From: Deltaproteobacteria bacterium
Lineage (GTDB): Bacteria; Desulfobacterota; Binatia; Binatales; Binataceae
NCBI GenBank assembly: GCA_021801125.1
Contig: JAJYYI010000033.1
Coordinates: 1-44,660, forward strand
Length of the DNA stretch: 44,660 bases
Direction of reading: 5' to 3'
The notes under the pieces were generated by a model. The model searched no databases. It was not told where the DNA came from and saw only the letters and a list, made by a program, of their open reading frames with translations. A program made the position numbers and the translations under genes. The stretch's first letter is position 1. Each line of letters starts with the position of its first letter. Shown in pieces: positions 2,681 through 24,355 of the stretch.

Positions 2681-3829
2681 TTAGTGGTCCAACGGATTGT
2701 CCTTGCTCAAGAACTCTCGCGCGATGACGAGCATCTGGATGGTCGGAGTGCCCTCTTCCAGCCAATTGAGTCGAGCGTCGCGATAAAGGCGCTCTATCCT
2801 GTGCTTGCGTGTATATCCGATTCCCCCATGTACCAAGAGCGCGCGATCAGTGACGCGCCCCACGGCCTCTAGCCCGAAAAGCTTGCATATCGAACTCTCC
2901 GCCGGGATCCTCTTGCCGGCGTCGCACTTTGCCGCCGCATCAGCAATCATCAGGCGCAGTGCGTGAATGTCCACGGCCATCTCGGCAAGATAACGCTGGA
3001 CGGCCTGGCGTGCGGCGATCGGTTTGCCGAAGGTGACACGCTGCTTGGCGAACGCGAGCGAAAGCTCGAAGGCGCGCTCGGCGGTCCCCAGAGAGGTCGC
3101 CGCGATAAAGAGTCGGCTAACCTCCAGCGCGGTTTCCATCTGTTCGAGGCCGCGGCCTTCTTCGCCAAGGACGTTGCGGACCGGCACGAGCACGTCCTTG
3201 AACGTAAGCTGCCCGTGCTCGCCGCCTTTGCAACCCATGGTTTCCGGCAAGGGCTCTATCGTGAAGCCTGGAGTGTTGCGTTCCACGAGGATCGCGCTCA
3301 CCGCCCGTTCACCTGCCTCCGGCTGCGTTTTCGCGAATACGATAAAGTGGCTTGCGATATTGGAATTGGTAATCAGATGTTTGCGTCCGTTGATTGAAAA
3401 ATGGCCGTTCACTTTGATCGCGGTCGTGCCGACGTCGGCACCTGTGCCATGGTCGGGTTCGGTCAGTCCGAAAGCGACTGACAGTTGCCCGGTCGCGATT
3501 CCCGGCAGAAGCGCGGCGCGCTGCTCTTCGGAGGCCATATCCGCGATGGCGTGCGCCGTCATGTTGTGGACGTGAACTAAGACACGGATAGCGCCCTGAA
3601 CCTTGGCCAACTCCGCGAGCACAGGCACATACTGCGTCACGCTCAAACCAAGTCCGCCATACTGTTCCGGCACCAGAAGGCCGAACGCTTGCATATCCCG
3701 CAGTATCGGCACCACCCGGTCGAGCGGCAGCCGCTCGGTCGACTCGATCTCTTCTTCAAACGGATCCAACTCGACCCATACTCTTTCGAAGAACCGGCGA
3801 CGAAACTCCTCATAAGCCTTGGCTTCCAT
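2681..3829 (-). CDS. Acyl-CoA dehydrogenase
   Basis: This FAD enzyme is predicted to introduce an alpha,beta double bond into an acyl-CoA and pass electrons to ETF. The start chosen is the ATG at 3829, since AGGAG lies seven bases upstream; an in-frame GTG at 3853 would overlap the preceding ATPase gene and has no better site. The resulting 382 aa is typical of the family. Visible motifs are VAFGLTEPDHGTGAD (FAD/substrate loop), AFAKQRVTFGKPIA (helical C-terminal domain), HGGIGYTRKHRIERLYRDAR and, near the end, EEGTPTIQML, where the family's catalytic glutamate often lies. It belongs to the same transcript as the thiolase and CoA-transferase. Confidence 0.94.
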   Translation of the reverse strand: MEAKAYEEFRRRFFERVWVELDPFEEEIESTERLPLDRVVPILRDMQAFGLLVPEQYGGLGLSVTQYVPVLAELAKVQGAIRVLVHVHNMTAHAIADMASEEQRAALLPGIATGQLSVAFGLTEPDHGTGADVGTTAIKVNGHFSINGRKHLITNSNIASHFIVFAKTQPEAGERAVSAILVERNTPGFTIEPLPETMGCKGGEHGQLTFKDVLVPVRNVLGEEGRGLEQMETALEVSRLFIAATSLGTAERAFELSLAFAKQRVTFGKPIAARQAVQRYLAEMAVDIHALRLMIADAAAKCDAGKRIPAESSICKLFGLEAVGRVTDRALLVHGGIGYTRKHRIERLYRDARLNWLEEGTPTIQMLVIAREFLSKDNPLDH

Positions 3830-3846
3830 AATCCTGCTCCTAGATT

Positions 3847-5397
3847 TCACCACACTGCCGCGTACATTATTTCTTCGGCCGTTGCCTCTCCCTGCGCGAA
3901 CTCAGCCGCGATCCGCCCCTGCCTGGCGACCAGTATCCGATCGGACAACGCCAACACTTCCGGCAAGTAGGAAGAGATAACGATTACCGCCTTTCCCGAG
4001 CGCGCGAGGTCCCGGATGATCTGGTGGATTTCGGCGATAGTAGCTACGTCGACCCCTCGCGTGGGCTCGTCGAAGATGACCAGGCTCGGGTCCTGTACCA
4101 GCGATTTAGCGATAACGACCTTCTGCTGGTTGCCCCCCGACAACTCCACCACCTTGGCGTTGCCGTCGATAGCTCTTATCTGCAGCTTCTTGATCCAGGT
4201 CTCCGCAAGCTCCCTTTTCTCGCGTGTCGAAACCAGCGACCGCCAGCCCTTACGCTTGGCAAGCCATCCCAGATAGATGTTCTCGGCGATATCCAAGCGC
4301 TCGAAGAAGCCGTTGCGCTTGCGGTCTTCGGTTATGTAAGCAATTCCGTCCCTGAGCGACTGCGCAGGCACGCGATATCGGATCGGCCGGTTGCCAAGGA
4401 GAATCGAGCCGCCGTGGATACGATTGCGCTTGAGCGCACCCCATATTATCTTCGCGATCTCCGTGCGCCCCGCGCCGACCAACCCGAAGATTCCGAGCAC
4501 TTCTCCCGCATAGGCGCGAAGCGTCATGTTCTTGACGACGGAACCCATCGTCACGTTCTCGACCGCGAGAACCTCGCGCATCGCAGCACCCGATTTGTGC
4601 CGTTCGTGATGGCCGTCCCGGCTATAAATCGTCTGCACCACCTCGCGCCCGACCATGTGTCGCACAATGGCCTCGCGCGTCATCTCCCGCGCCGGTTTGG
4701 TGACTTGCAGGGCTCCGTCACGCAACACCGTGATGCGGTTGGATATTTGCAGTGCCTCCTCCAGAGCGTGGGAGACGAAGATTACCCCCACGTCCGCGGC
4801 CCGCAAATCTTCGATCACGTGGAAAAGGTGCAGCACCTCTTCCGGCGTCAGCGCTGCCGTGGGCTCATCGAAGATGACGACCCGCGCCTGTGCTCTCAGC
4901 GCTCGCGCTATTTCGACCATCTGCTTTTTGGCCGCGCCGAGCGTCGCCATCTTGGCCGTCGGATCGACGTTGAAGTTCATCGACTGAAGCAGAATCTGAG
5001 CCTTGATGTTGAGCGAGCGGTACCGCGTGAGCAGCGATTCATGGCCCAGTTCGATATTTTGCGCGACCGTCATGGTGTCGACCAGGCTGGTCTCCTGGTA
5101 CACCATCGCTATACCTCGCTCCAGGGCGTCGCGTGGTCGCGAAAAGTTCACGGCCTGACCGTCGATTAGCAATTCGCCGTCGTCCAGCGTGACCGCTCCG
5201 GAGATAATTTTGCACAGCGTGGACTTTCCCGCGCCGTTCTCACCCACAAGCGCATGAACTTCGCCGGGATACAGCGTGAAATCCACGTCTTTGATGGCAG
5301 GCACGCCCTGGTAAACCTTGGTTGCTTTTCGCAACTCGAGGATCGGTTTGTCCGAGGCCGCGCGCTGTTCGCGGCTTAGCACTTCAGATACCGCCAT
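3847..5397 (-). CDS. Ribose/galactose-type ABC transporter double ATPase (RbsA/MglA-like)
   Basis: This 516-aa protein has two tandem nucleotide-binding domains, as in RbsA, MglA and XylG, and powers uptake through the two RbsC-like permeases of the cluster. The first domain has Walker A GENGAGKST at 52-60, a Q-loop in AMVYQETSLVD, a divergent signature LGAAKKQMVEIARAL and Walker B VVIFDEPTAAL. The second domain has a degenerate Walker A (GLVGAGRTE), which is normal for this family, and a canonical LSGGNQQKV signature followed by VIFDEPTRGVD. The ATG start at 5397 overlaps the end of the propeller gene by 14 bp, so translation is probably coupled. The predicted cargo is a small polar compound, not necessarily a sugar. 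Confidence 0.95.
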   Translation of the reverse strand: MAVSEVLSREQRAASDKPILELRKATKVYQGVPAIKDVDFTLYPGEVHALVGENGAGKSTLCKIISGAVTLDDGELLIDGQAVNFSRPRDALERGIAMVYQETSLVDTMTVAQNIELGHESLLTRYRSLNIKAQILLQSMNFNVDPTAKMATLGAAKKQMVEIARALRAQARVVIFDEPTAALTPEEVLHLFHVIEDLRAADVGVIFVSHALEEALQISNRITVLRDGALQVTKPAREMTREAIVRHMVGREVVQTIYSRDGHHERHKSGAAMREVLAVENVTMGSVVKNMTLRAYAGEVLGIFGLVGAGRTEIAKIIWGALKRNRIHGGSILLGNRPIRYRVPAQSLRDGIAYITEDRKRNGFFERLDIAENIYLGWLAKRKGWRSLVSTREKRELAETWIKKLQIRAIDGNAKVVELSGGNQQKVVIAKSLVQDPSLVIFDEPTRGVDVATIAEIHQIIRDLARSGKAVIVISSYLPEVLALSDRILVARQGRIAAEFAQGEATAEEIMYAAVW

Positions 5398-6508
5398 CGC
5401 TCTTTACTCTGTAGCGCAACAACTCGTGGTTGCCCTTGCAACAGACGAACAGATCGTCGCCGAATTGCCTTGCGGAGACTATGCCGTGGCGCACCCCGTC
5501 GGCGCGACTGTGGAAACTCTCGAGCAGCTCCCCAGATTGATTGAGCTTCACGACTAACCCATACGATCGTGGCGGAGCCCATGGCTTGGCCCGCCCAAGC
5601 TTCTTGATCGCGCCCCCCTGCAGCGGCTCCAAACCGGAGTTCAGGGTGCGGAGCGCGGGCCGAATCCAATAGAGCGGATCCACCGTCCGCATCATCTCGT
5701 CGCGGAATGCACGCTGCGTAAGCAAAAACTCCACGAGTTGAGTCCGTAGCGCAAACACGGACAACCAATACCCGCCTTCGGGAGCAACGCTGATGCCAGC
5801 GGGATAACCCACCAGATTCTTGCGCACGGCTTCGAACTCTCCGCGGCGCGGTCCTTCGAGATGGTAGCGATTTACCGAGTGGTCCCAAGCCTGGGTTATC
5901 AGCAGCGACGCGTTGTCAGCCGAAGGACACAGGCCGTTCGGAAAAGGCATTCCCTCGCGCACTACTTCCCCACGCCGCGCCGACAGATCGTAGCGAATGA
6001 GCCGCCCGCTGCGGTCGCGCTTCATCAAGCTCCATACCCAGTCGTCGGCGCTACAATTTATACTGCCCTCGGTCACGTAGAGCGCCCCGCCGGGGCCGAC
6101 GGCCAAAGCCGTGGCGCACCTGAGCGGCGCCCCCAAGACCTCACCGATCAACACCTTGTTTTGCGCCTTGCTGCTCACCTCCACAACGCCGACGCCGCTG
6201 ACGCAGACCAAGAGTCTCTCGCCGTCGAGAAAAGCCAGCGGGCCGGCGCTGCCGCTGAATTCAGCAACCACCGCGCGGTCGCGGTAACCTTCGCCCCAGC
6301 ATCGCACCACCGAATTCCCAGCAGACACAAAGACTTCATTCGACGCCGAGCAGGCTACGTCATTGATCTCGTGAAACACGCCGACCGACGCGAACTCCTC
6401 CAGGCGATTATTCGGCGCAAGCGGCCCGTCGAGAGGCGGGATTGCCGTGTGCTCCTTTTCCCCAACGGCAAATTCCCTAAGAATGGTTAGCCAGTACGGA
6501 AGCTCCAC
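5384..6508 (-). CDS. Strictosidine synthase-like / SMP-30-type beta-propeller protein
   Basis: This 374-aa protein has no obvious signal peptide. It carries repeated propeller blades and the strictosidine-synthase-like signature FPNGLCPSADNASLLITQAW near residue 200, then NRYHLEGPRRGEFEA and the GYPAGISVAPEGGYWLSVFA stretch. Family members include lactonases, SMP-30 gluconolactonases and plant strictosidine synthases, which hydrolyse or condense small molecules; bacterial members are mostly uncharacterised. Where SMP-30 proteins have an EGP metal ligand near the first blade, this one has HEINDVACS, so activity is uncertain. The start is GTG at 6508 with AAGAG seven bases upstream. It is a paralogue of the propeller fused to the neighbouring permease and overlaps the ATPase gene. 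Confidence 0.85.
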   Translation of the reverse strand: MELPYWLTILREFAVGEKEHTAIPPLDGPLAPNNRLEEFASVGVFHEINDVACSASNEVFVSAGNSVVRCWGEGYRDRAVVAEFSGSAGPLAFLDGERLLVCVSGVGVVEVSSKAQNKVLIGEVLGAPLRCATALAVGPGGALYVTEGSINCSADDWVWSLMKRDRSGRLIRYDLSARRGEVVREGMPFPNGLCPSADNASLLITQAWDHSVNRYHLEGPRRGEFEAVRKNLVGYPAGISVAPEGGYWLSVFALRTQLVEFLLTQRAFRDEMMRTVDPLYWIRPALRTLNSGLEPLQGGAIKKLGRAKPWAPPRSYGLVVKLNQSGELLESFHSRADGVRHGIVSARQFGDDLFVCCKGNHELLRYRVKSDGGI

Positions 6509-6560
6509 AGCTAAACTCTTTGGTAGTTCGGGATGCGGCCGTGAGTCGGCCGTGTCCTCG

Positions 6561-8714
6561 CTATGGGCGACCGCCCCCAGCCAGCTTGATCCGCCCGACT
6601 CGATTGTTGTTCAGCCCTCCGATGTAGAGGAACCCATCGTGTTCCCTCATCGAGGTGACCGTGGCGTGCGCATTCCCCGTAGGATCCCAGTACGACTCCA
6701 ATACCTCGCCCTTCTCGGTGATTTTGATGATGCACCCGTAATTCATGCTCGGATACAGCCATTCGTCGCGAGGAATGCGCTTCATCATTCGTCGCCGAAA
6801 TCTGGGATGGGCGTAAGCCAAATCGAATACCGGCGAGCGAATCCCAACCAGGGCGACCCAATAGTTCCCGTCGCTCGCGCGGTTTATATTGTCGACATAG
6901 CCAGGTAGATTCTCTACGAAGACTTCGACTTCGCCTTTTTTAGGGCCCGCGATCCAGTAGCGCAGAATTCGGCAAAGCCAAGTCTGGCCGATGAGCACCG
7001 AATTACCGTCGTGCGACACGGCCACCCCATTGGGAAAGACCAACCGCTTCAGTACGGTGCGCGTCGTTTTGGTGGCCGGATCGTAACAGATCAACCGACC
7101 GTTGCGGCGCCCCTCGAGACCATCCTCAATCCAGTCATGGGCCTCGAAACGCACCGACGCCTCGCTGAAATAAATCTTGCCGTCCGGAGCGATGTCGAGG
7201 TCGTCCGCCAGACGCAACCGCGAATCGTCCTTAAGCCGATACCAAGTGCGGTTTGTCTCGTCCGTCAGCTTTGTCACACGGCCCAGCGGATCGACGCCAT
7301 AAAGGCCCATCCCGCCGATGCAGATAATCAGGTTGCCGTTTTTATCCCACTGCATACCCAACGGCATACCGCCGATCTTGGCGAAGATCTCCGCCCGGTC
7401 GAAATTTTCCCCGGAGAATCTCCAAATCCATCCGCGCCTGTCACCGGTGTACAACCTACCCTGGGCGTCAAGCAGAACGTCTTCGGGGCCTTCGACAACT
7501 CCCAAACCGATCGGCATCGAATTGGATAGTCGATCGTTAATCGCAAATGGACTGTTGTCGTTAGGAGCAATGCTCGGAGCGGGCTCGAAGTGAAGGTATG
7601 TAGGATTGATATATATCTTCTGAATGGCCTTAGCCCGGTTTTTAGCCCACTTGATATCAACACCAACCACCAGCAAAAGGATCATTGCCTGAATGAGCGT
7701 GTAGATTTCTCCACCCACGTTCATCAGCAAGAGCCCCTTGGACAGGATGGTGATCGTCGCCGCCCCGATTAGCGCCCGGGGAACCGTGCCGTTGCCGCCA
7801 GCCAGACTGATGCCCCCCAGGACCGCGGCGGTCAACGCCGTGAATTCCATGCCCAACGCGGTGTACGGGCTCAGGCTGTTCACCCGCGAGGCGTACAACA
7901 TGGCGGCCATTGCCGTGAGCAGCCCGGAGAAAACATAACTCGACAGGAGTACACGCTCGACGTCGATTCCCGCGTGTCGGGCGGCCTTGCGGCTGGCTCC
8001 TACGGCGGTTATATGCCAGCCCAGCCTTGAGCGGCTCAGCATCACGTGCCCCACCAGCACGACGACAATTAGGAAGACGATCGCCGTTGGGACGCCTAAG
8101 ACGCTCCCGGTCCCAAGCCACGTCCAAAAAGGATCCTGAATCGTGCCCTTTGTGGCTATCGACATCGAGAAGTGTTCGTCGAGGAGATTGGTAATTCCCC
8201 GGTAGACGAGCAGGGCAACCATCGTCGCCAGAAACGGCTTCGCCTTCAGGTAGGCGACGAGCACGCCATTGCATGCTCCCATAAGGCAGCCCAGGCCCAG
8301 CACGAGAAGCGTCGTGAGCCACATGGGAAGACCCACGATCAGGCCGAGAAGGAGCGCAACATAGTTGTTCAGCGCAAACATCGATCCAACGCTGAGATCG
8401 ATGCCCCCCGAGATGACGACGATACCCATGCCGATCACAACGAGAGCGAACTCCGATAGCTCTCGTAGCGTCGAGATAACGTTGTCGAACTCGCCCATGC
8501 CGGGCACTGCGATAACGAACGAAGCCGTTACGGCGATCAGCACGGCCAGAGGAATTGCAGGTTCCATCCACTGCTTTTCCAGCAGCTCGCCTAGCACGAG
8601 CTGGGCCGACGCCCGCCATCGCAGCTCTTTCCAGCGACCCCTTGTGCGCGGAGCGACCCAGGTCTTGGGCCATCTCGCGGCGTCGACGGTCGCCGCCGTT
8701 ACTTCAGCAGCCAA
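6561..8714 (-). CDS. Fusion: RbsC-like ABC permease + strictosidine synthase-like beta-propeller
   Basis: This is a single 717-aa reading frame with two unrelated modules. Residues about 52-355 form an RbsC-type permease with eight to ten hydrophobic helices and the family stretches ISGGIDLSVGSM (102-113) and TALTAAVLGGISLAGGNGTV (292-311). A linker at about 356-398 leads into a six-bladed-propeller domain (400-712). This contains EGPEDVLLD (408-416), LADDLDIAPDGKIYFSE (502-518) and FPNGVAVSHDGNSVLIGQTW (560-579), followed by CRILRYW and GYVDNINRASDGNYWVAL. The start is TTG at 8714 with AAGGAG eight bases upstream; no stop interrupts the junction. RbsC proteins normally end shortly after the last helix at about 320-350 aa, so the propeller is extra. 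By family topology the C-terminus should face the cytoplasm. The DNA coding for the linker (about 7540-7660) is visibly more AT-rich than its flanks. Substrate and enzymatic activity are unknown. Confidence 0.9.
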   Translation of the reverse strand: MAAEVTAATVDAARWPKTWVAPRTRGRWKELRWRASAQLVLGELLEKQWMEPAIPLAVLIAVTASFVIAVPGMGEFDNVISTLRELSEFALVVIGMGIVVISGGIDLSVGSMFALNNYVALLLGLIVGLPMWLTTLLVLGLGCLMGACNGVLVAYLKAKPFLATMVALLVYRGITNLLDEHFSMSIATKGTIQDPFWTWLGTGSVLGVPTAIVFLIVVVLVGHVMLSRSRLGWHITAVGASRKAARHAGIDVERVLLSSYVFSGLLTAMAAMLYASRVNSLSPYTALGMEFTALTAAVLGGISLAGGNGTVPRALIGAATITILSKGLLLMNVGGEIYTLIQAMILLLVVGVDIKWAKNRAKAIQKIYINPTYLHFEPAPSIAPNDNSPFAINDRLSNSMPIGLGVVEGPEDVLLDAQGRLYTGDRRGWIWRFSGENFDRAEIFAKIGGMPLGMQWDKNGNLIICIGGMGLYGVDPLGRVTKLTDETNRTWYRLKDDSRLRLADDLDIAPDGKIYFSEASVRFEAHDWIEDGLEGRRNGRLICYDPATKTTRTVLKRLVFPNGVAVSHDGNSVLIGQTWLCRILRYWIAGPKKGEVEVFVENLPGYVDNINRASDGNYWVALVGIRSPVFDLAYAHPRFRRRMMKRIPRDEWLYPSMNYGCIIKITEKGEVLESYWDPTGNAHATVTSMREHDGFLYIGGLNNNRVGRIKLAGGGRP

Positions 8715-8726
8715 ATGCCCAGCTCC

Positions 8727-9857
8727 TTAACGCGGAACCTTGACGACCTCGCCCTTGCCGTCGCGTTCAACTGTGATCACCCTGCCGGTGCCGTCGTAGC
8801 ACATACCGGGAACGTTCCAATTGGAATGATCAATCTTCACCACAGGCGCGTAGATCACCGTGCGGCTGCTGCCGGCCGGCTTGCCGCTCTGGAGCAGGAA
8901 AGCCGCCAGCGTCATAAGCTGGCGCCCCTGCTCGGGCACGTTGTACCCGTAGGACTGGTAGAAAACGCCCTCCCCGATCCCCTGACAGGTGATCGCGCTC
9001 GAATCAGCGGTGAAAACCTTTACCTTGCCTTCGAGCCCCGCCGCCTTTACCGCTCTTGCGGCTCCGTAGGCCATCTGATCCCAGTCGCTCCAAATCGCGC
9101 AGAGATTGGGATGCTGCTTTAGGATGGTGGAAGAGATGTCGTAGGCCTTCGAGCGCTGCCAGTCGGCAAACTGCCGCGCGACGATTTTAATTTCCGGGTG
9201 CGCCTTAAAGACCGGCGCCGCACCCTCCCAAGCCTGCTGCGTCCAGCCCGAGTTTGGGTCGCCGGGCACCAACGCGATTTCATGCGACGTGGACGTCCCT
9301 GCTCCGCACTGGGCAACGATGTCTTGAGCGACAAGCTTACCGATACCGATGGCGTCGCCGCCTACGAAAGCGTCGCTTTTATAGTTGGATTCCATGTTAA
9401 CCTGCAGAACATAGATCCCTTTCTCGTTAGCCTGCTTGAGCAGGTTAGCCACGAGCCCGGTATCCAGGTTATGCACGATCAGAACGTCGGGCTTCTCATT
9501 TATAAACGCCTGCACGACAGCGACTTGCTTGGTTGGATCCCAGTTTGGGTCGCGCATCTTGAACTTCATGCCGTAGGCATTTGCATACGTGCGTATCCAG
9601 TAGGTCCATTCCTCCATCAAGGGCGTGCCCATGCCCAGCGGCACCCAAGCGACCGTCTTCCCGCCAACGCACTTTTGGAAGCGGTCGCGAAATTGCTCGG
9701 TCGTGTCGTACGGCTTCGGCATGCTGGAGCAGCTTTGTCCGTCCGTGGACGCACCTGCGGCCTGCGCCCCGGTGCGTCCGGCCATTCCCACGAGCAGCGC
9801 CAAGGCCACCAAGCCCCCGGCGCACTTCTTGAGTAAATGCATATTAGCTTGCCTCAT
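8727..9857 (-). CDS. Periplasmic substrate-binding protein of ribose-type ABC transporter
   Basis: This 376-aa type-I periplasmic binding protein has a Sec signal peptide: MRQANMHLLKK, a hydrophobic GGLVALALLVGMAG core and an AQA-like cleavage site near residue 33. The mature part shows the fold's alternating domains: TVAWVPLGMGTPLMEEWTYW, AFINEKPDVLIVHNLDTG, FVGGDAIGIGKLVAQDIV and ALVPGDPNSGWTQQ. Four or more cysteines (SCS, QKC, QCG, LCA, ITC, MCYD) may form disulfides. ATG starts at 9857 and 9842 are both plausible; the first has GGGGG six to ten bases upstream. It lies 12 bp before the permease-propeller gene and 13 bp after the other permease, so it delivers cargo to that pair. Confidence 0.92.
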   Translation of the reverse strand: MRQANMHLLKKCAGGLVALALLVGMAGRTGAQAAGASTDGQSCSSMPKPYDTTEQFRDRFQKCVGGKTVAWVPLGMGTPLMEEWTYWIRTYANAYGMKFKMRDPNWDPTKQVAVVQAFINEKPDVLIVHNLDTGLVANLLKQANEKGIYVLQVNMESNYKSDAFVGGDAIGIGKLVAQDIVAQCGAGTSTSHEIALVPGDPNSGWTQQAWEGAAPVFKAHPEIKIVARQFADWQRSKAYDISSTILKQHPNLCAIWSDWDQMAYGAARAVKAAGLEGKVKVFTADSSAITCQGIGEGVFYQSYGYNVPEQGRQLMTLAAFLLQSGKPAGSSRTVIYAPVVKIDHSNWNVPGMCYDGTGRVITVERDGKGEVVKVPR

Positions 9858-9870
9858 TACTGGCCCCCTG

Positions 9871-11082
9871 CTAGTCCCCTTGCTTGACAGTTTCCTCGTC
9901 CCTTGGATTAAGCCTTTTATCCAGCACCAGGGCCGCCAAAAGGATCAATCCCTGTATGATTTGCTGCACAAATACGTCCATGTTAAGTAGCGTCATGCCG
10001 TTGAGCATCACCCCGATAAGCAAGGTGCCAGCGACAACGCTCTGAACCCCGCCCCGTCCGCCGACGAGACTGATTCCTCCGAGCACGACGACCGTGAGCA
10101 CGTTGTAGATGAGCGGCGACGTCATAATCACCTGGGTATCCATCGCGTTCAACGTTCCCGCGAGAACCAGGCCGGCAAGATATCCTAGTAACGCGCAAAC
10201 TGTATACTCGATCATTGTCAAAGGGCGTATCGGTATGCCCGTTAGGGACGCCGCCTCGGGATTGTCGCCGTGCGCGTAGATAAAGCGCCCCAGCGCAGTG
10301 CGCGTCAATACGAAGTGAGTTGCTATACACACGGCGGCGAAAATCAGCACCGGAACCGGCAGCCCCAATATGTGCCCGAGCCCCATCGTGCGGACAAAGG
10401 CGCCGCGCTCCGGCACGTCCACGATTAGATTTCCACCCGACAAGAAGAAAGTGCGGGCCAAGCCAAACACCGCCAGGCCCGTCGCCAGCGTGGTAAATAG
10501 AGCGGGAATCTCGACGAAAGCTATCACGAAGCCGTTGAGCAAACCCATCGCGAGGCAGACGCTAAGTCCTATTGCGACCGCCAACATTACGCTGGCGCCA
10601 GGTTCGCTCAGCGCCTGTAGCGTCAGCGCGGTGGAAACGCCCATAGTCGCGATCAGAGACAGATCGATCCCACGCGCGATAACGACCAAGCCCATCGCCA
10701 AGCTGAGCACTCCAAGGACCGATACGTTGCGCACCAAGGTCAGAAGATTCCCCAAGGTGAGGAAGCCCGGCAGCATCGCCCCGAAGAGAACCACCAGGCC
10801 GGCGACGACGATCAGGACGACTTGTTCCTGGCTAAGCCGGAAAAACCCGCGGCGTCGAACCTCCGCCGCGCCGCGGCGCGACTCTCTAACTTCGCGCGAG
10901 ACATCCGTGTTCGACAGGAGCGAATCCGAAGGCGCTTGCCGCGCGGCTGCAAGACCATTTGATTGAGATTTTTCGGCCCCCACTCGAAGCCCCAAGCCCC
11001 CTCTCAGGCTTTGTACCGACCGTCCCGTACGTAAAATTTTGATCGGGCCCTGCGGCGATGTCAATACTTCCGCGATGAACAC
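9871..11082 (-). CDS. RbsC-like ABC transporter permease
   Basis: This second ribose-type permease of the cluster would pair with the fused permease to form a heterodimeric channel. Hydrophobic segments begin with VVLIVVAGLVVLFGAMLP (about residue 86). Family stretches are VVIARGIDLSLIATMGVSTA, the cytoplasmic loop with AHGDNPEAASLTGI, and VVVLGGISLVGGRGGV. The longest frame (403 aa) starts at GTG 11082, but it has an 85-residue hydrophilic, arginine- and serine-rich leader unusual for RbsC. A GTG at 10983 preceded by purine-rich GAGAGGGGG is an alternative. It is the first gene of the minus-strand cluster, divergent from the flavoprotein gene. Confidence 0.92.
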   Translation of the reverse strand: MFIAEVLTSPQGPIKILRTGRSVQSLRGGLGLRVGAEKSQSNGLAAARQAPSDSLLSNTDVSREVRESRRGAAEVRRRGFFRLSQEQVVLIVVAGLVVLFGAMLPGFLTLGNLLTLVRNVSVLGVLSLAMGLVVIARGIDLSLIATMGVSTALTLQALSEPGASVMLAVAIGLSVCLAMGLLNGFVIAFVEIPALFTTLATGLAVFGLARTFFLSGGNLIVDVPERGAFVRTMGLGHILGLPVPVLIFAAVCIATHFVLTRTALGRFIYAHGDNPEAASLTGIPIRPLTMIEYTVCALLGYLAGLVLAGTLNAMDTQVIMTSPLIYNVLTVVVLGGISLVGGRGGVQSVVAGTLLIGVMLNGMTLLNMDVFVQQIIQGLILLAALVLDKRLNPRDEETVKQGD

Positions 11083-11246
11083 ATCCGGCGTGCGCCGCTC
11101 GCCTGAGACGATCCGGCTCGCCTTGCGTCGCGAAGCAAGCAGCAGGCCGCGCGCTGCGGCGGATCCGGCCAGCTTGCCCCGGGTACGCCGGATCGCGCAC
11201 CGCGCGCCTCGTCGCTGTTCTCGATTTTGGGCTACTATATTTGATC
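11083..11246. promoter_or_regulatory. Divergent intergenic region, probable promoters for regions A and B
   Basis: This region separates the minus-strand transporter cluster from the plus-strand flavoprotein operon, so it should hold both promoters. On the plus strand TACTAT at 11233-11238 resembles a -10 element only eight bases before the ATG at 11247, which has no Shine-Dalgarno site; this suggests a short-leader or leaderless transcript. No convincing -35 element or clear operator repeat was seen, and no regulator gene adjoins. Confidence 0.4.
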
Positions 11247-12725
11247 ATGGAAAAATTTGACGTGATCGTAGTTGGCGGGGGAAACGCCGCGCTTTGCGCG
11301 GCGCTCGCCGCCCGCGAGCGAGGAGCGAGCGTCGCCATGCTGGAGCGCGCGCCCGTAGCTGAGCGCGGCGGCAACTCGGCGTTCACCGCCGGCGGCTTCC
11401 GTGTCGTCTACAACGGCGTGGACGACCTGCTCGAGTTAATTCCCGACTTGAGCGAAGAGGAACGGCAATCCACCGACTTCGGCGCTTATAGTAAGGAGCA
11501 ATACTTCGATGACATGGCCCGGGTGACGGAGTTTCGGGCCGACCCTGACTTGGTTGAGACCCTGGTGCGGCGCAGTTACGCGACGCTCAAATGGATGCGC
11601 GGCAACGGCGTGAGGTTCGTCCCGATGTACAGGCGCCAGGCTTTCAACGTCGACGGCAAGTTCAAGTTCTGGGGCGGCCTAACCGTAGAAGCGTCGGGCG
11701 GCGGCCCCGGTCTGGTAGACGCGCTTTATCGCGCCACCGAGCGCAACGGCGTGACCGTCTTTTACGAGACAAGCGCCCTGGGATTGCTGGCTGACGACCG
11801 CGGCGTGTACGGGGTGCGAGCGCGACGAACAGGAGTGACTCGCGAACTGGCCGCCAAGGCGGTGGTGCTCGCCTGCGGCGGTTTCGAAGCCAACGCTGAA
11901 TGGCGTGCCCGCTATCTGGGCTCGAACTGGGACTTAGCCAAGGTACGAGGAACGCGCTTCAATACCGGCGACGGGATTCGGATGGCGCTCGAACTCGGCG
12001 CGCAGCCTTGCGGACATTGGTCCGGGTGTCACGCTGTAGCCTGGGACCGCAATGCGCCCGAGTATGGCGACCTTGCGGTCGGCGACGGTTTCCAGAAGCA
12101 TAGCTATCCGTTGGGGATTGTCGTCAACGCTCACGGGCAACGTTTCCTCGACGAGGGCGCGGACTTTCGCAATTACACCTACGCCAAGTATGGTCGCCTT
12201 ATCCTCGAACAGCCGGGCCGCTTCGCCTGGCAGGTGTTCGATAACAAGGTTGCCCACCTTCTGCGCGACGAATACCGGATTCGCCAGGTGACCCGCGTTC
12301 AAGCGAACTCGCTCGAAGAATTAGCCGCACGGCTCGAAGGGGTGGACCCGCGAGGCTTCCTTAATACGGTGCGCGAGTTCAACGCGGCGGTGGCGACAGA
12401 ATTACCGTTTAACCCGAATATCAAAGATGGCCGCTGCACCCGAGGACTGGCGGTTCCCAAGAGCAACTGGGCGAATACGATCGACACGCCCCCTTTTCTC
12501 GGGTTCGCCGTGACCTGCGGGATTACTTTCACCTTCGGCGGACTTCGGATTAACACGTCAGGCGAAGTGCTCAGCACCGAGGGTGCGCCTATCCGCGGGT
12601 TATACGCGGCTGGGGAGCTGGTTGGCGGCCTTTTTTACTTCAACTATCCTGGGGGAACCGGCCTGATGTCCGGCGCGGTTTTTGGCCGGATCGCCGGAAA
12701 CTCGGCCGGCGCCGCCGCCCGCTGA
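11247..12725 (+). CDS. FAD-dependent dehydrogenase, tricarballylate dehydrogenase TcuA-like
   Basis: This flavoprotein of 492 aa belongs to the fumarate reductase/succinate dehydrogenase flavoprotein superfamily. The N-terminus FDVIVVGGGNAALCAALAAR is the dinucleotide-binding GxGxxx fold, and the GNAALCAA form plus ERGGNSAFTAGGFR is characteristic of the TcuA branch, which oxidises tricarballylate to cis-aconitate. The C-terminal FAD-binding end reads GLYAAGELVGGLFYFNYPGG. The start is the ATG at 11247; an in-frame TTG six bases earlier is less likely. The gene leads a plus-strand set with an aldehyde dehydrogenase 15 bp downstream. No tcuB or tcuC is present, so a different 2,3-desaturation substrate is likely. 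3-Ketosteroid dehydrogenases are distant relatives and a less likely assignment. Confidence 0.87.
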   Translation: MEKFDVIVVGGGNAALCAALAARERGASVAMLERAPVAERGGNSAFTAGGFRVVYNGVDDLLELIPDLSEEERQSTDFGAYSKEQYFDDMARVTEFRADPDLVETLVRRSYATLKWMRGNGVRFVPMYRRQAFNVDGKFKFWGGLTVEASGGGPGLVDALYRATERNGVTVFYETSALGLLADDRGVYGVRARRTGVTRELAAKAVVLACGGFEANAEWRARYLGSNWDLAKVRGTRFNTGDGIRMALELGAQPCGHWSGCHAVAWDRNAPEYGDLAVGDGFQKHSYPLGIVVNAHGQRFLDEGADFRNYTYAKYGRLILEQPGRFAWQVFDNKVAHLLRDEYRIRQVTRVQANSLEELAARLEGVDPRGFLNTVREFNAAVATELPFNPNIKDGRCTRGLAVPKSNWANTIDTPPFLGFAVTCGITFTFGGLRINTSGEVLSTEGAPIRGLYAAGELVGGLFYFNYPGGTGLMSGAVFGRIAGNSAGAAAR

Positions 12726-12740
12726 ACTCGCGGACTTCGT

Positions 12741-14207
12741 ATGAGCGCCTTGCCTTTTCTCATCGGCGATCGCTGGGTAATCGGTTCCGGGGAACCGATT
12801 CGCTCGATCAATCCCGCCGACGGCAGTCTCAACGCCGAGGTCAGCACCGCCGGCGCGGCTGAAGTGGACGCCGCGGTTAACGTGGCCGCCAAAGCGCAGC
12901 GCGAGCGCGCCTGGCGCGTAATGCGGCCTCACGAACGCGCGCGATTGCTGTACCGTGTCGCGGAGCTTATTACCGCTGGTGCCGAGGACCTGGCTCGACG
13001 GCAAATGCGAGAGAACGGTAAGGTGATCGCCGAATGCCGCGCGCAGGTGGCGAGCGCCGCCGCAGTGTTTCGTTACTATGCCGGCCTGTGCGAGACCCTT
13101 GGCTCGGAGGTAACGCCCTCTCGCGGACCGTACTGGAGCATGACGGTCTACGAACCGGCGGGTGTCGTCGCAGCAATCACGCCGTGGAATTCGCCGCTTA
13201 CGATGGAGGCGCAAAAACTGGCGCCCGCATTGGCCGCCGGCAACGCGGTCGTGCTCAAACCGTCCGAAGTGACCCCTACCGTTGGGCTTGAGTTGGGTCG
13301 GCTCTGCCTCGAAGCCGGCTTTCCACCGGGCATCGTCAACGTCCTGGCGGGCACGGGCGCTGAAACCGGCATGCCGCTTGTCCGCCACTGCGGAGTGCGC
13401 ATGGTGGCCTTCACCGGCGGCACGAGCGCCGGACGCGCAATCGCGCTAGCCGCGGCCGAGCGGCTCGTTCCGGTAGTCTTGGAACTCGGCGGCAAGTCGC
13501 CCCATATCGTGTTCGCCGACGCGAACATCGAGCGAGCGATCGGGAGCATCATCGACGGTATTTTCGTCTCCACGGGCCAGTCATGCGTGGCGGGCTCGCG
13601 TTTGTTCGTGGAGAAACCGGTGTTCGATAAGGTGCTCTCCCGCTTGGTCGAGCGTACGCGAGGCCTGAAGGTCGGGATGCCGGATAGTGCCGATTCGATG
13701 ATCGGCCCATTGGCTACGTTCCCGCACCGGGAGCGCGTGGAGCGTCACGTTGCCGCCGCCCGCGACGACGGTGGAGAGCTAATCGTCGGCGGCACGCGCC
13801 CGGATGCGCCAGAGCTTGCGCGGGGCGCTTTCTACCAACCGACGATCGTGGTTGGACTTAGCAACCGCGCCAGAGCCTGCCAGGAAGAGATCTTCGGACC
13901 GATTCTATGCGTCCTGCCCTTCGAAAATGAAGCGGATCTGATCGCTCAAGCCAACGACACGGTCTACGGGCTTGCCTGCGGTATATGGACGCCCGACTAT
14001 CAAAAGGCTTGGCGAGTCGCGCGCGCGATCGAAGCGGGAACGGTTTGGATCAACACCTACAAGCAGCTCAGCATCTCGACACCTTTCGGCGGCTTCAAAG
14101 AGAGTGGAATCGGCCGCGAGAAGGGTGTGGGAGGAATGCGCCTTTATCAGCTAGCCAAGAGTATCTACTGGGGGCTGGGGGGTCCTTTGCCCGAAACGGC
14201 GCCGTGA
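12741..14207 (+). CDS. NAD(P)-dependent aldehyde dehydrogenase
   Basis: This 488-aa enzyme is of normal family length and oxidises an aldehyde to an acid in the cytoplasm. Visible features are the TPWN motif with the catalytic asparagine at 150, the cofactor-binding KPSEVTP, the FTGGTSAGR turn, general base E248 in VLELGGKSP, and nucleophile C282 in GQSCVAGSR. It ends with ESGIGREKG and a hydrophobic oligomerisation tail. It follows the TcuA-like gene by 15 bp and no terminator lies between, so co-transcription is likely. The specific aldehyde is unknown; the IWTPDYQKAWRVARAIEAGT segment is typical of betaine- or aromatic-aldehyde-type members. Confidence 0.95.
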   Translation: MSALPFLIGDRWVIGSGEPIRSINPADGSLNAEVSTAGAAEVDAAVNVAAKAQRERAWRVMRPHERARLLYRVAELITAGAEDLARRQMRENGKVIAECRAQVASAAAVFRYYAGLCETLGSEVTPSRGPYWSMTVYEPAGVVAAITPWNSPLTMEAQKLAPALAAGNAVVLKPSEVTPTVGLELGRLCLEAGFPPGIVNVLAGTGAETGMPLVRHCGVRMVAFTGGTSAGRAIALAAAERLVPVVLELGGKSPHIVFADANIERAIGSIIDGIFVSTGQSCVAGSRLFVEKPVFDKVLSRLVERTRGLKVGMPDSADSMIGPLATFPHRERVERHVAAARDDGGELIVGGTRPDAPELARGAFYQPTIVVGLSNRARACQEEIFGPILCVLPFENEADLIAQANDTVYGLACGIWTPDYQKAWRVARAIEAGTVWINTYKQLSISTPFGGFKESGIGREKGVGGMRLYQLAKSIYWGLGGPLPETAP

Positions 14208-16986: not shown

Positions 16987-17703
16987 CTAGACGGCCAGGT
17001 AGCGTCTGGTAATTTCCGCGTCGCGCTCCAGATTTTCAGCCTTGTCGCGCAGCACGATTTGTCCCTTGTCAATGATCGTCACGTGGGTAGCCACCGTCTG
17101 GCAGAAATGCAGATTCTGCTCGGCAAGCACGATCGTGACTCCCATTTCGCGCAAACGAAGCAGCAACCGTGCGATCTGCTGCACCATGATCGGCGCCAGG
17201 CCTTCTGACGGCTCGTCCAGAAGGATCAACTCCGGGTTCCCCATAAGCGCCCGCGCGATCACCAGCATCTGCTGTTCACCGCCCGAAAGACGCCCCGCGG
17301 CGCGTTGCCTTATCGAATAGAGCGTCGGGAATACTTCATAAATTCGCTGCAAGTTCCAGTACACCTGTCTGTGCGCTCCGGGTTTCTTAGCGATTCTCAA
17401 ATTGTCCTCAACCGAGTGCTCGGGGAAGACCTGCCGATCCTCGGGCACATAGCCGATGCCCGCTCGTGCGATCCGATAAGGCGACAAACCGTTAATGGCC
17501 TTTGCGTTAAGCAGAATCTGTCCCGCGCTCGGCGCTACAAGCCCGGCGATGGCCCTAAAGGTCGTCGTCTTTCCTGCCCCATTTCGCCCCAGCAACGCCA
17601 TCGTAGCGCCCTTTTCGATCTCGATGCTGACGCCGAACAGGATTTGGCTCGCACCGTAAGAAACGTCGATCTCTCGTAATTCGAGCTTAAGCGCGCGGCT
17701 CAT
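16987..17703 (-). CDS. livF: Branched-chain amino acid-type ABC transporter ATP-binding protein LivF
   Basis: This 238-aa ATPase energises uptake by the livKHMGF-type transporter at the inner face of the membrane. It shows Walker A GRNGAGKTT, a LivF-type AGIGYVPEDRQVFPEHSVEDNL Q-loop region (only the first part is strictly conserved), signature LSGGEQQML and Walker B LILLDEPSEGLAP. The ATG overlaps the livG stop by 4 bp, indicating translational coupling. It is the last gene of the operon. The family imports branched-chain amino acids, but HAAT-type systems also carry amides, urea and aromatic acids, so the cargo is open. Confidence 0.95.
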   Translation of the reverse strand: MSRALKLELREIDVSYGASQILFGVSIEIEKGATMALLGRNGAGKTTTFRAIAGLVAPSAGQILLNAKAINGLSPYRIARAGIGYVPEDRQVFPEHSVEDNLRIAKKPGAHRQVYWNLQRIYEVFPTLYSIRQRAAGRLSGGEQQMLVIARALMGNPELILLDEPSEGLAPIMVQQIARLLLRLREMGVTIVLAEQNLHFCQTVATHVTIIDKGQIVLRDKAENLERDAEITRRYLAV

Positions 17704-18464
17704 ACCGGAACACTCGCACTGGTGGCGCCGAGATAGGCCTCTATTACCGCGGGATTGCCGCGGACTTCGCGCGGCGATCCTTCCGCCAGGACCTTACCGT
17801 AATGGAGGACACGAACCGACTGAGCTATCTGAAAAACGATATCTATGTCGTGTTCGATAAAGATAAGCGTCAGGGATTGCTGGCTCCACAGGTTGTGGAC
17901 CTTTTCGATCATTTGCCAACGCGCCTCTCGCCCCATTCCCGCCGTTGGTTCATCGAGGAGCAGCACCCTCGGCTCCAACGCGAGCGCCAGCGCGATATCG
18001 AGCAATTTCTGGTCGCCGTGCGAAAGCTGCTGAGAGGCCTGTCCCGCCACGGCCTCCAGGCCGACCAGTTCGAGAACTTCGCGGGCCCTGGCGCGCGCGC
18101 TCGGCAGCGGGAAACGCCGCAGAATAGAGTGGCTCTGGCGCCAGCGGGCATGCACGGCGGCGGCAAGCGCCTGCTCGACGGTGAATTGCGGAAAGAGGCT
18201 GGCAATTTGAAACGCGCGAGACAGCCCGCGGCGCACAATCTCGACTTCAGGGAGCCCGACCACGTTCTCTCCGCTCAACCAGACCTCGCCTGCGTCGGGC
18301 TTCAGCCTGCCCGCGATCAGGTTGAAAAGGGTCGTCTTCCCGGCACCGTTGGGCCCTATGATTGCCGTCAGCGATCCGGGCGCGAAGTCGAGGTTGACGT
18401 TATCGGCCGCCGCCACGCCGCCAAACCGTTTCGTCAGTCGCTTGATCGTCAGCCGGCCCTGCAT
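17700..18464 (-). CDS. livG: Branched-chain amino acid-type ABC transporter ATP-binding protein LivG
   Basis: This is the second ATPase of the HAAT system, 254 aa from the ATG at 18464. GAGG lies nine bases upstream of that start, and a longer in-frame start would run far into livM and add 60 residues unlike the family. Motifs are GPNGAGKTTLFNLIAG (Walker A), RRGLSRAFQIASLFPQFTV (Q-loop region), signature LSHGDQKLLDIALALA and Walker B LLLDEPTAGM. LSHGD in place of LSGGQ is usual for LivG. The gap to livM is 4 bp. Confidence 0.95.
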   Translation of the reverse strand: MQGRLTIKRLTKRFGGVAAADNVNLDFAPGSLTAIIGPNGAGKTTLFNLIAGRLKPDAGEVWLSGENVVGLPEVEIVRRGLSRAFQIASLFPQFTVEQALAAAVHARWRQSHSILRRFPLPSARARAREVLELVGLEAVAGQASQQLSHGDQKLLDIALALALEPRVLLLDEPTAGMGREARWQMIEKVHNLWSQQSLTLIFIEHDIDIVFQIAQSVRVLHYGKVLAEGSPREVRGNPAVIEAYLGATSASVPV

Positions 18465-18468
18465 GACT

Positions 18469-19443
18469 CTATCCCTCGCGTGAAAGGCGCCGCACGGCCC
18501 ACGGACCGCATCGCTCGAAGACAAAGTCCAGTACGCCTCGGCGAAGACCAAGCACGACGCACAACAGAACGATCCCCATGACGAGGCCGGAATATTCGGT
18601 GGTCCGCGTGATAATCCCATTAAGCATGAGAAAGATGCCCGCACCAGCGATCGGACCGAGGAACACCGTCATCCCACCCAGCATGATCATCAGAATTCCG
18701 TCACCGGATAAAGTCCAGTAGGCAAAGTTGGGATAGGCGCCGGAAACGTAGAGGCTCATCAGGACTCCTGCGTTGGCGGCTATGGTCCCCGAGATTACGA
18801 ACGCCGCAAGCTTGTATCGCTGCACCGACAGGCCCAGCGCCAGCGCGCGCTCCGGATTGTCGCGGACCATCCGTAAGCTATACCCGAACGGCGACTCGAC
18901 CATTTGGCGCACAAGCAGCACCAAGCCGAAAAAGAACACGCAGGCGAGAACGAAGAATTGCTTTGGATTGCCGAGGTCGACGCCAAGAAAGGGCGGACGC
19001 GGGATACCTCCTTGCAGCCCCTGATCCCCGCCCGTCAGCGAGACCCAACTGAGGATGACAGCATGCAACAGCATCTGAAACGCCAGAGTGAGAATCCCGA
19101 AGTAGATATCCTTGAGCCGGATGCATAACGCACCGACGCTGACCGCGAGCACCGCCGCACCGGCAATCGATACAACAAAAGCCAGCGGGATCGAGACGAG
19201 CCCGGTTTGCATCAGCAACCCAAAAGCGTACGCGCCGAACCCGAAGAACATCGCGTGGCCAAATGAAACGAGTCCGGCGTAACCGACAAGCAGGTTCAGT
19301 GAAAGCGCATACAGGCCGAAGATGCTTAAGCGCAACACGAAGTCCGCGAACTGCGGATTGTCGAGCGTGAGCGCGAGGGCAATTACGACGAGGCATCCGC
19401 TCAGCGCCATCATCGCCTCGCCAAGCGCCGATCGGCCATTCAT
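18469..19443 (-). CDS. livM: Branched-chain amino acid-type ABC transporter permease LivM
   Basis: This 324-aa polytopic membrane protein forms one half of the HAAT transport channel. It has about eight to ten hydrophobic helices, the GLYALSLNLLVGYAGLVSFG segment with HAMFFGFGAYAFG following, which is the typical LivM signature, and RMVRDNPERALALGLSV, the cytoplasmic coupling loop. The ATG at 19443 lies one base after the livH stop, so the two permeases are translated in step. Confidence 0.95.
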   Translation of the reverse strand: MNGRSALGEAMMALSGCLVVIALALTLDNPQFADFVLRLSIFGLYALSLNLLVGYAGLVSFGHAMFFGFGAYAFGLLMQTGLVSIPLAFVVSIAGAAVLAVSVGALCIRLKDIYFGILTLAFQMLLHAVILSWVSLTGGDQGLQGGIPRPPFLGVDLGNPKQFFVLACVFFFGLVLLVRQMVESPFGYSLRMVRDNPERALALGLSVQRYKLAAFVISGTIAANAGVLMSLYVSGAYPNFAYWTLSGDGILMIMLGGMTVFLGPIAGAGIFLMLNGIITRTTEYSGLVMGIVLLCVVLGLRRGVLDFVFERCGPWAVRRLSREG

Positions 19444-19444
19444 G

Positions 19445-20347
19445 TCAGGCTAACTTTCGTCCGAAAAGTCCAGTGGGCTTGACCAGCAGCACCAGCGCCA
19501 TAAACGCGAACATCAGACCGTCAGTGAAAAGAGGGTAGCCGATGCTCCCGAAGGCGCGAATGATCCCAACCAGAACCGCGGCGAAAAAGGCGCCGATAAT
19601 CGAGCCCATTCCGCCAATCACGGTGACTATGAAGGACTCGATCAAGATCGAAAACCCCATCTCGGGGGACATCGACCGAACCGGAGCAGCAAGCGCTCCC
19701 GCCGCTCCGGCAAGCAACGAACCTAAGCCGAACACGGCCGCATAGAGCAGGCTCGTGTTGACGCCGAGACAGCTCAACATTTGCCGATTGACCGCGGCGG
19801 CCCGCACCAGCTTGCCGAAACGAGTCTTGTTCACCAAAACGCTGAGACTGAAGGCCGCGGCCACCGTCAGCCCGGTGAGAAACACGTAAAACGGCGGCAC
19901 GAAGCCGCCGAACAGATGTATCGGGGGCAGCGCAAAGGTCGCCGGCATGCCCATCGTTTGAAAGTCGGTTCCCCAGACAATCTTTACCACGTCGTCAAGA
20001 ATCAATATGAAGGCGTAGCAGACCAGCAACTGCATTAGTACATTCGAGTTGTAAACCGGACTGATAAAGAGCCGCTCGAACACGACGCCGAACACGGCGA
20101 CACCCAGCGCGCCCGCAATCACGGCATCAAAATAGCTGCCCGTTACGCGATACGCTGTGAGCGAGAAGTAAGCGCCCAGCATATAGAACGATCCGTGCGT
20201 GAAGTTGATCACGCCCAGAACACCGAAGATGAGCGTCAGGCCGGACGCGACTAGGAAAAGCAGCATGCCGATGATGAGGCCGGTCGACACTTGCGTAACG
20301 ACGCAAGAGGAGCTGCTGACGCAGTCCAGCAAAGCTGGCAAATTCAT
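19445..20347 (-). CDS. livH: Branched-chain amino acid-type ABC transporter permease LivH
   Basis: This 300-aa permease is the partner of LivM. The family signature near the N-terminus reads GLTLIFGVLGVINFTHGSFY, followed by MLGAYFS, and a second conserved stretch is AAAVNRQMLSCLGVNTSLLY on the cytoplasmic loop. The C-terminal part shows GGMGSIIGAFFAAVLVGIIR. The ATG at 20347 has GGAGGAG about nine bases upstream. The gap of about 70 bp to livK contains no clear terminator. Confidence 0.95.
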   Translation of the reverse strand: MNLPALLDCVSSSSCVVTQVSTGLIIGMLLFLVASGLTLIFGVLGVINFTHGSFYMLGAYFSLTAYRVTGSYFDAVIAGALGVAVFGVVFERLFISPVYNSNVLMQLLVCYAFILILDDVVKIVWGTDFQTMGMPATFALPPIHLFGGFVPPFYVFLTGLTVAAAFSLSVLVNKTRFGKLVRAAAVNRQMLSCLGVNTSLLYAAVFGLGSLLAGAAGALAAPVRSMSPEMGFSILIESFIVTVIGGMGSIIGAFFAAVLVGIIRAFGSIGYPLFTDGLMFAFMALVLLVKPTGLFGRKLA

Positions 20348-20420
20348 CTCGCTTCTCCTCCAGTGAGGCGCCCAAAGCAGGATGGCGCCGAAGAGCCCGC
20401 GCCTTCAGGCGCGGACGAGA

Positions 20421-21692: not shown

Positions 21693-21972
21693 TTGATCCC
21701 CCACAGACTCTGGACGATGATGCGCTTTAACCGGTTGAAGCCGGTCGGTGCGGCCTTCTCCACCCTTGCCGCATTCGGCGCGCCACCTTAAGGTACCGAG
21801 GTCAAGACGGTCTAGCAACCACTCGCTCGCCCTTTGAGCGCGGGCACTCGGTTACCTGAAAGCCTCCTTTTTGCCCTAGCGCCGCAGCCCGAGCCAAGCG
21901 TTTGCTCCAGGAGCGGCCTGCCAAGGATGATGAAAGGAAAAGCCGCTAACAAAGCGACGGGAGGACAACGCG

Positions 21973-24019: not shown

Positions 24020-24355
24020 GTTCGCAGAACCTCCTGTTGCAGGTATCCCCCAGATCGGCGCTCCCACCGCCGTTTTGCGTCTGCGATTGGGAACGGATCG
24101 CTTTCGGCCCGCGCGGTCTAACAAGCACAGGCCATCGCCGATGGGTCAAGCCCGACCCAAGGCGTTCCGCACGCACAGGCTAGCCGCCGTTTTGGACGGC
24201 TGTCACTCTCAGCGCCCGAAGGTAAAACCTGGCGCTTGGCCCTCGAGCATCGTATGCACCGGCCGCTTAACGCGACCGAAACGCTTTGCGTCTCGGCTCA
24301 GCGGTGCCACAGGACAAATGCCCTCGGGCCGCCCGACCGCAGGGCGCCATCCTGG
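24020..24355. other. Gene-free stretch between CoA-transferase and tandem isomerase genes
   Basis: These 336 bp separate two minus-strand genes. No family-like frame was found on either strand. The minus-strand end just before 24019 carries the AGGAGG site of the isomerase gene, and a promoter for that gene may lie here, but no clear -35/-10 pair was recognised. Confidence 0.4.

Follow-up and report, generated by a model that had tools for sequence, protein, structure and literature searches.

A conserved ABC importer cassette in which a CUT2-type permease is fused in frame to a strictosidine-synthase-like propeller

Organization of the Importer Cassette

The window, i.e., the whole stretch of 44,660 nucleotides that was analysed (contig JAJYYI010000033.1 of a Deltaproteobacteria bacterium), carries on its minus strand a cassette of five genes. 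The first gene (9871..11082) encodes a plain CUT2 permease of 403 aa with a BPD_transp_2 domain, and the second (8727..9857) a substrate-binding protein of 376 aa (Peripla_BP_4) with a hydrophobic, signal-like N-terminal segment. The third gene (6561..8714) encodes a protein of 717 aa in which a permease is fused to a strictosidine-synthase-like (SSL) propeller, as assigned by Pfam, alignment, and an AlphaFold2 model. The fourth gene (5384..6508) encodes a free SSL-like propeller of 374 aa that lacks the full set of ligand residues described below, and the fifth (3847..5397) an RbsA-type double ATP-binding protein of 516 aa with two ABC_tran stretches. The free propeller gene starts 52 bases downstream of the fusion gene and overlaps the ATPase gene by 14 bases. 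The BPD_transp_2 permeases, the single ATPase polypeptide with two ABC domains, and the Peripla_BP_4 binding protein are those of CUT2 importers of the RbsABC, AraFGH, and LsrABCD type; the cassette differs from these in that an SSL propeller forms the C-terminus of one permease and that a fixed fifth gene encodes another propeller, which lacks the ligand set. The best NCBIfam matches of the double ATPase are of the XylG/AraG/AlsA/RbsA type and lie below the equivalog cut-offs; among the matches listed, none of the five cassette proteins reaches such a cut-off.

All 20 loci fetched besides the window show this same succession of permease, binding protein, fusion, free propeller, and ATPase, the plain permease being cut by the contig end in one of them (L081) and the ATPase by the record end in another (L045). 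In the 12 plasmid loci where both genes are annotated, the fusion stop and the free propeller start overlap by 4 bases (11 loci) or 8 bases (1 locus). The pairwise distances of the six cassette parts correlate with r of 0.81-0.93, values that still include the kinship between the species.

Downstream of the cassette, also on the minus strand, there are genes for an acyl-CoA dehydrogenase (2681-3853), a thiolase (1439-2629), and a family III CoA-transferase (238-1434). On its other side the cassette adjoins a divergent pair on the plus strand (11241-14207), encoding a TcuA-like FAD enzyme, which scores 612.9 bits against an NCBIfam tricarballylate dehydrogenase cut-off of 369 bits, and an aldehyde dehydrogenase.

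The Permease-Propeller Fusion Gene

The fusion gene is a 717-codon frame (6561-8714, minus strand) that starts with TTG and is open throughout. Pfam places BPD_transp_2 at residues 81-350 (E 1.2e-32), and in the propeller half SSL_N at 389-433, Str_synth at 504-590, and SGL at 449-624, all of them above the curated cut-offs. The protein thus comprises a permease (about 52-355), a linker (about 356-388), and a six-bladed SSL propeller (389-712); the propeller half with its conserved ligand set (residues 366-717) is encoded at 6561..7619 on the minus strand. An earlier note on this DNA had proposed a single in-frame fusion of a permease and a full SSL propeller, and both the Pfam domains and the existence of 20 other full-length copies bear this out: the open reading frame is a CUT2 (ribose-type) ABC permease joined in frame to a six-bladed SSL propeller. 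BPD_transp_2 is present in all 21 fused proteins, which likewise all match both SSL_N and Str_synth at E 0.001. The source genome contains one such fusion, its three other matches being two members of the cassette (the free propeller and the plain permease) and a further, separate permease.

In the 12 annotated plasmid records the fused gene is named 'SMP-30/gluconolactonase/LRE family protein' in 10 and after its permease half in 2. The former name is misleading, since these genes are half membrane channel. Literature searches aimed at both the fusion and the cassette (titles and abstract openings) found no published description of either among the matches listed. Each part belongs to a known family.

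Distribution in Genomes and Plasmids

The main doubt attached to the proposal, that no other genome might carry the fused form, was removed by 20 further full-length copies, found in 5 genomes and 15 proteobacterial plasmids at 43-88% identity. The genome of the same genus (G001) carries the fusion at 88% identity, and 19 further copies are 702-718 aa long and align end to end. The plasmid copies were found by tblastn in 15 of 72,556 records, in each of which a single place spans 80% or more of the protein, with identities of 39.6-48.7%; their hosts are alphaproteobacteria in 13 cases, Paraburkholderia in one, and Pantoea in one. A full-length fusion is present in 3 of 96 relatives (G000, G001, and G042) and in 4 of 395 genomes across the phylum (G000, G141, G318, and G358). 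By group, it was found in 3 of 148 genomes of the class, in 1 of 5 and 2 of 46 in two other families, and, in the class to which G318 belongs, in 2 of 85; these samples overlap, and six different genomes carry the fusion in all. No full-length match was found in the 39 genomes of the same family that belong to other genera (G002-G040). This patchy spread, together with the plasmid copies, would fit horizontal transfer. The sampling outside the phylum consisted of the plasmid collection only, with chromosomal copies uncounted there, so the plasmid location reflects the collection.

With the single protein as query, no relative was found in viral contigs, and a pattern scan of genome contigs matched only the metagenome-assembled genome of the same genus, a result that reflects the limit of the method and not absence. 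On the conjugative plasmid pShin-09 of Shinella sp. HZN7 (L051, 8001-9298), the fused gene lies in four pieces at the record end and the free propeller at the record start; this broken copy, running across the record start, was excluded from the 21.

Fold and Closest Known Systems

The model of the fused protein, built by AlphaFold2 from six sequences, has a mean pLDDT of 55. The blades of the propeller mostly reach 71-92, with values of 60 or lower at residues 481-500, 521-540, and 621-660, and the permease half stays mostly below 50, which is too poor to position the propeller. In VIA-align comparisons, where Z values within 1 count as tied, the fused propeller matches two six-bladed proteins as a tied pair, TGW6 (Z 31.8, 2.7 A over 277 residues) and strictosidine synthase (Z 31.4), followed by the RPA3624 lactonase (8djf; Z 29.8) and DFPase (1pjx; Z 29.4). 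The model of the free propeller (pLDDT 75) matches strictosidine synthase (Z 33.4) and TGW6 (Z 33.0). These models support a six-bladed fold for the fused and free propellers alike. Rice TGW6 (8kg3) is also the best PDB match by profile (E 1.3e-32). For the permease half, phmmer matched no solved CUT2 permease structure at E 0.01, and none of 40 profile matches at E 10 covers it.

The propeller had been assigned by the earlier note to the strictosidine synthase/SMP-30 lactonase family. The SMP-30 label holds for the wider fold family, but the closer relatives are SSL proteins (TGW6 and strictosidine synthase). SMP-30/gluconolactonase-type propellers (RPA3624, 8djf; Drp35; squid DFPase) share the fold, and the fusion has an SGL match above the Pfam cut-off, but they are free-standing enzymes, 14-21% identical when aligned by structure. 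The strictosidine synthase of plants (e.g., PDB 2fp8) shares the Str_synth domain, the fold, and a Glu-His pair aligned with E691/H692 of the fusion, but it is a Pictet-Spengler enzyme of alkaloid biosynthesis, without a transporter; we take it to lack the metal ligand set. The Pfam name Str_synth does not by itself indicate that tryptamine and secologanin are joined in a Pictet-Spengler condensation. Standalone bacterial SSL proteins (27 loci, e.g., on the Pseudomonas aeruginosa plasmid pZYPA1927) adjoin the fused branch on the midpoint-rooted tree described below, at 33-40% identity (tblastn), but they are unfused, and no permease or binding protein of the cassette type was found beside them.

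The Free Propeller as a Partner of the Fused One

As the earlier note had indicated, a stand-alone propeller directly follows the fusion gene (5384-6508). This follower is, however, no redundant paralogue: it is a conserved partner that lacks the ligand set. The free and fused propellers are about 30% identical and fall in different clades. In a maximum-likelihood tree of 69 propellers (21 fused, 21 free, and 27 standalone SSL), the fused ones form one branch with support of 100/95, the free ones with 100/100, and the standalone ones with 100/99; four free proteins have long end branches. The midpoint root serves for drawing only, and weaker SSL-like matches (e.g., those of L016 and L019) were left out. 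A recent duplication of the fused propeller was rejected as the source of the free one, each set making up one side of a branch.

Strong matches to the free protein all occur where the fused protein is, both in the plasmid records and in the 395 genomes. With the free protein of L047 as query, 17 plasmid records were matched, and the 16 with at least 80% coverage are the 15 that carry the fusion plus pShin-09, with its frame-broken fusion; the 17th, from Sulfitobacter sp. S223 (54% coverage at 31% identity), was not counted as a free protein. A profile search of the 395 genomes matched 32 at E 1e-20. Four of them lie below E 1e-100, and these same four carry the fusion; the other 28 (E 1e-20 to 1e-38) were assigned to standalone SSL by score alone. 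At E 0.001, Str_synth matches 8 of the 21 free proteins and SSL_N 1 of the 21; the free protein of the window lies above the Str_synth cut-off. The invariant residues of the free family include P24, D27, N33, W157, W248, R255, S331, H333, and R335.

The positions that we have tallied in one alignment of the 21 fused and 21 free propellers are presumably those of the metal ligands of paraoxonase and DFPase. In the fused propeller, E411, D505, N562, D608, N609, E691, and H692 are present in 21/21, and position 504 holds D (16) or N (5). The free proteins have D (19) or N (2) at position 411, T, L, or S at 504 in all 21, and A, S, or G at 505. Position 562 is N only in the free protein of the window (1/21). 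At position 608, D occurs in none of the 21, its place being taken by A, G, S, V, or W. Position 609 is R in 18, K in 1, and G in 2 (the window and G001), and E691 and H692 are kept in 11 and 5 free proteins, respectively. Thus, the Glu/Asn/Asn/Asp set of calcium-dependent propeller hydrolases is found in 21/21 fused propellers (with D for the first Asn in 16), whereas no free protein has the full set. The separate clades, and the ligand set lost in the free family and kept in the fused one, indicate that the free neighbour is an old partner, as judged from its sequence, and probably a pseudoenzyme. Position 411 of the free proteins is still mostly acidic, and therefore some cation binding may persist in this family.

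TGW6 is a hydrolase of indole-3-acetic acid-glucose (IAA-glucose) whose ligand residues E59, N167, N226, and N272 are partly conserved and in whose crystal no calcium was seen (PMC10958001). Counted on the alignment, these residues correspond to E411, D504, N562, and N609 of the fusion. Rice TGW6 is free-standing and has one acidic ligand; in 16/21 fused proteins the N167 position is occupied by D, which gives them an additional acidic residue. Since TGW6 is a hydrolase with no calcium seen at the equivalent site (PMC10958001), the conserved ligands do not prove metal catalysis.

The Linker and the Origin of the Fusion

The junction had been described as AT-rich in the earlier note, and a GC dip does exist, but it is mild, with 46-49% GC in 120-base windows over 7520-7759 vs 52-70% in the other windows. 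The linker residues D353, K358, Y368, and P371 are invariant in the 21 fused proteins. The further suggestion, that the linker is the trace of two once-separate neighbouring genes, finds no support. By tblastn at E 1e-6, no permease or binding protein of this type was found beside the 27 non-fused SSL genes, whose flanks covered up to about 1.5 kb in 26 cases (shorter at contig ends) and 8 kb in one, so that remoter neighbours are possible; one of these loci (L061) has a different ABC ATPase adjoining. With the same gene order in all loci, no such pair within those flanks of the standalone genes, and the fused form as a single branch, a fusion of neighbours that are found apart elsewhere is not supported. 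None of the 21 cassettes has the two modules split, although these cassettes were found with the fused protein as query, and split forms were sought solely via the free protein and the standalone SSL genes.

Membrane Side of the Propellers

In the permease of the window, net-positive stretches are found at the N-terminus (+9/-6), in the loop 222-254 (+6/-2), and in the linker 355-389 (+5/-2), and negative loops at 71-88 (+1/-4) and 179-202 (+1/-3); some hydropathy segments overlap, which leaves the helix count unsettled. By the positive-inside rule, this pattern would place the linker and the propeller in the cytoplasm. We assume the C-terminus of RbsC to be cytoplasmic as well. None of the 21 free proteins has a signal-like N-terminus by hydropathy (highest mean 1.12), while all 21 binding proteins, taken as positive control, reach means of 1.53-2.53.

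In G042 (L081, 4376-7063, minus strand), the free propeller and the double ATPase make up one ORF of 895 aa, with a linker of about 30 residues. Codons 303-414 of this ORF lack an in-frame ATG, GTG, or TTG, the ATPase domain beginning near 399, and codons 331-459 are free of stops in all three frames; thus, a single indel error there could not by itself place a stop between propeller and ATPase. The sequence comes from a draft of 74% completeness, on a single 10.5-kb contig, at 73% GC, a composition at which open frames are common. The ORF is strong but single evidence that the free propeller sits at the cytoplasmic motor. Its first 370-375 residues were used in the free alignments and the tree, and the DNA stretch 5941-7063 for the invariants of the free family. 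The ORF lies 531 bases upstream of a gene for methylmalonyl-CoA mutase that has the same orientation.

Together, the charge pattern, the free twin without a signal-like N-terminus, and the ORF of G042 favour the cytoplasmic orientation that the earlier note had predicted. Its idea of catalysis upon entry appears plausible, given the ligand set kept in the 21 fused propellers.

A Proposed Function for the Cassette

We propose that the cassette encodes a five-component CUT2-type importer with enzyme-derived propellers on its cytoplasmic side, the fused one hydrolysing the incoming substrate and the free one docking as a structural or regulatory subunit, a reading to which we give a probability of about 0.55. 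The plain and the propeller-bearing permease would form a heterodimeric channel driven by the double ATPase. The fused propeller, hanging at the cytoplasmic mouth, would hydrolyse an incoming ester, lactone, or acyl-glucose conjugate. This would trap the product, which catabolic enzymes of the acyl-CoA or aldehyde/alcohol type, encoded by adjacent genes, would then take over. With its ligand set lost, the free propeller would dock on the ATPase or the permease. To our knowledge, ABC importers are generally thought to deliver their substrate unchanged, leaving the chemistry to separate enzymes. If the proposal is true, this cassette, kept across distant bacteria, would exemplify the coupling of import to the first step of metabolism, and it offers direct mutants for testing such coupling.

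The strongest competitor, with a real though clearly smaller chance, is that the fused propeller is a regulatory or docking domain, non-catalytic in transport, which either senses the product and throttles import or serves as a landing pad for catabolic enzymes. Other ABC importers do have C-terminal regulatory domains, and the second propeller is present in all 21 cassettes, yet lacks the full ligand set in every one. A docking or binding role would, however, not obviously need the ligand set that stays whole in all 21 fused propellers though the full-length proteins are down to 43% identity with that of the window. A combination of both ideas, which we regard as rather improbable, is that the fused propeller hydrolyses the substrate at the exit while the free twin, whose old ligand pocket mostly carries an arginine (609), captures the acid product and influences the ATPase with which it is in contact (the two are joined in G042), giving product feedback on import within one complex.

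Slightly less credible still is a fusion that is real but trivial, merely fixing the stoichiometry of an ordinary hydrolase that would do equally well unattached: SMP-30/SSL enzymes are common as soluble hydrolases and gene fusion often succeeds co-expression, but the modules are never split in the 21 cassettes, with the caveat that the fused protein was the query. We consider it quite unlikely that the propeller lies on the periplasmic face, processing or receiving the substrate before transport. Many plant and animal SSL and SMP-30 relatives are proteins of the secretory pathway, but the charge pattern, the lack of a signal-like segment in the free twins, and the joined ORF of G042 all speak against it. 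Although the genome to which the window belongs is a draft in 150 contigs, an assembly or annotation artefact is hardly conceivable, since 20 other full-length copies exist, 15 of which lie in plasmid records.

Flanking Genes and Hints to the Substrate

Under the proposed hydrolysing importer, the genes next to the cassette may hint at the substrate, and we regard them as suggestive only. The trio of acyl-CoA dehydrogenase, thiolase, and CoA-transferase genes after the cassette was found only in G001 among the 20 fetched loci. In many loci the neighbours encode acyl-CoA, aldehyde, and alcohol enzymes; others include beta-oxidation genes, AMP-binding acyl-CoA ligase-like genes, a 2-oxoacid dehydrogenase, members of the carboxymuconolactone decarboxylase family together with dehydrogenases, and, just upstream in two loci, a nitroreductase gene. 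The Pantoea locus is flanked by pentose and triose-phosphate genes. Since the flanking catabolic genes vary this widely between loci, no single substrate follows. In a locus of Shinella sp. HZN7 (L040), the gene for a degradative HMG-CoA reductase (10316-11641, plus strand) shares one base with the first permease gene, a hint that mevalonate or its lactone may be a substrate of that cassette.

Elsewhere in the window, a second ABC importer cluster, of the LIV type, lies on the same strand as the cassette (16987-21818, minus) and encodes two ATPases, two BPD_transp_2 permeases, and a Peripla_BP_6 protein. A 481-aa protein (22679-24124, minus strand) has two matched stretches of a DSBA-like thioredoxin domain. 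A prolyl-tRNA synthetase-like protein of 458 aa (34869-36245, plus strand) carries a C-terminal ProRS-C_1 domain, which we take to be typical of the archaeal/eukaryotic type.
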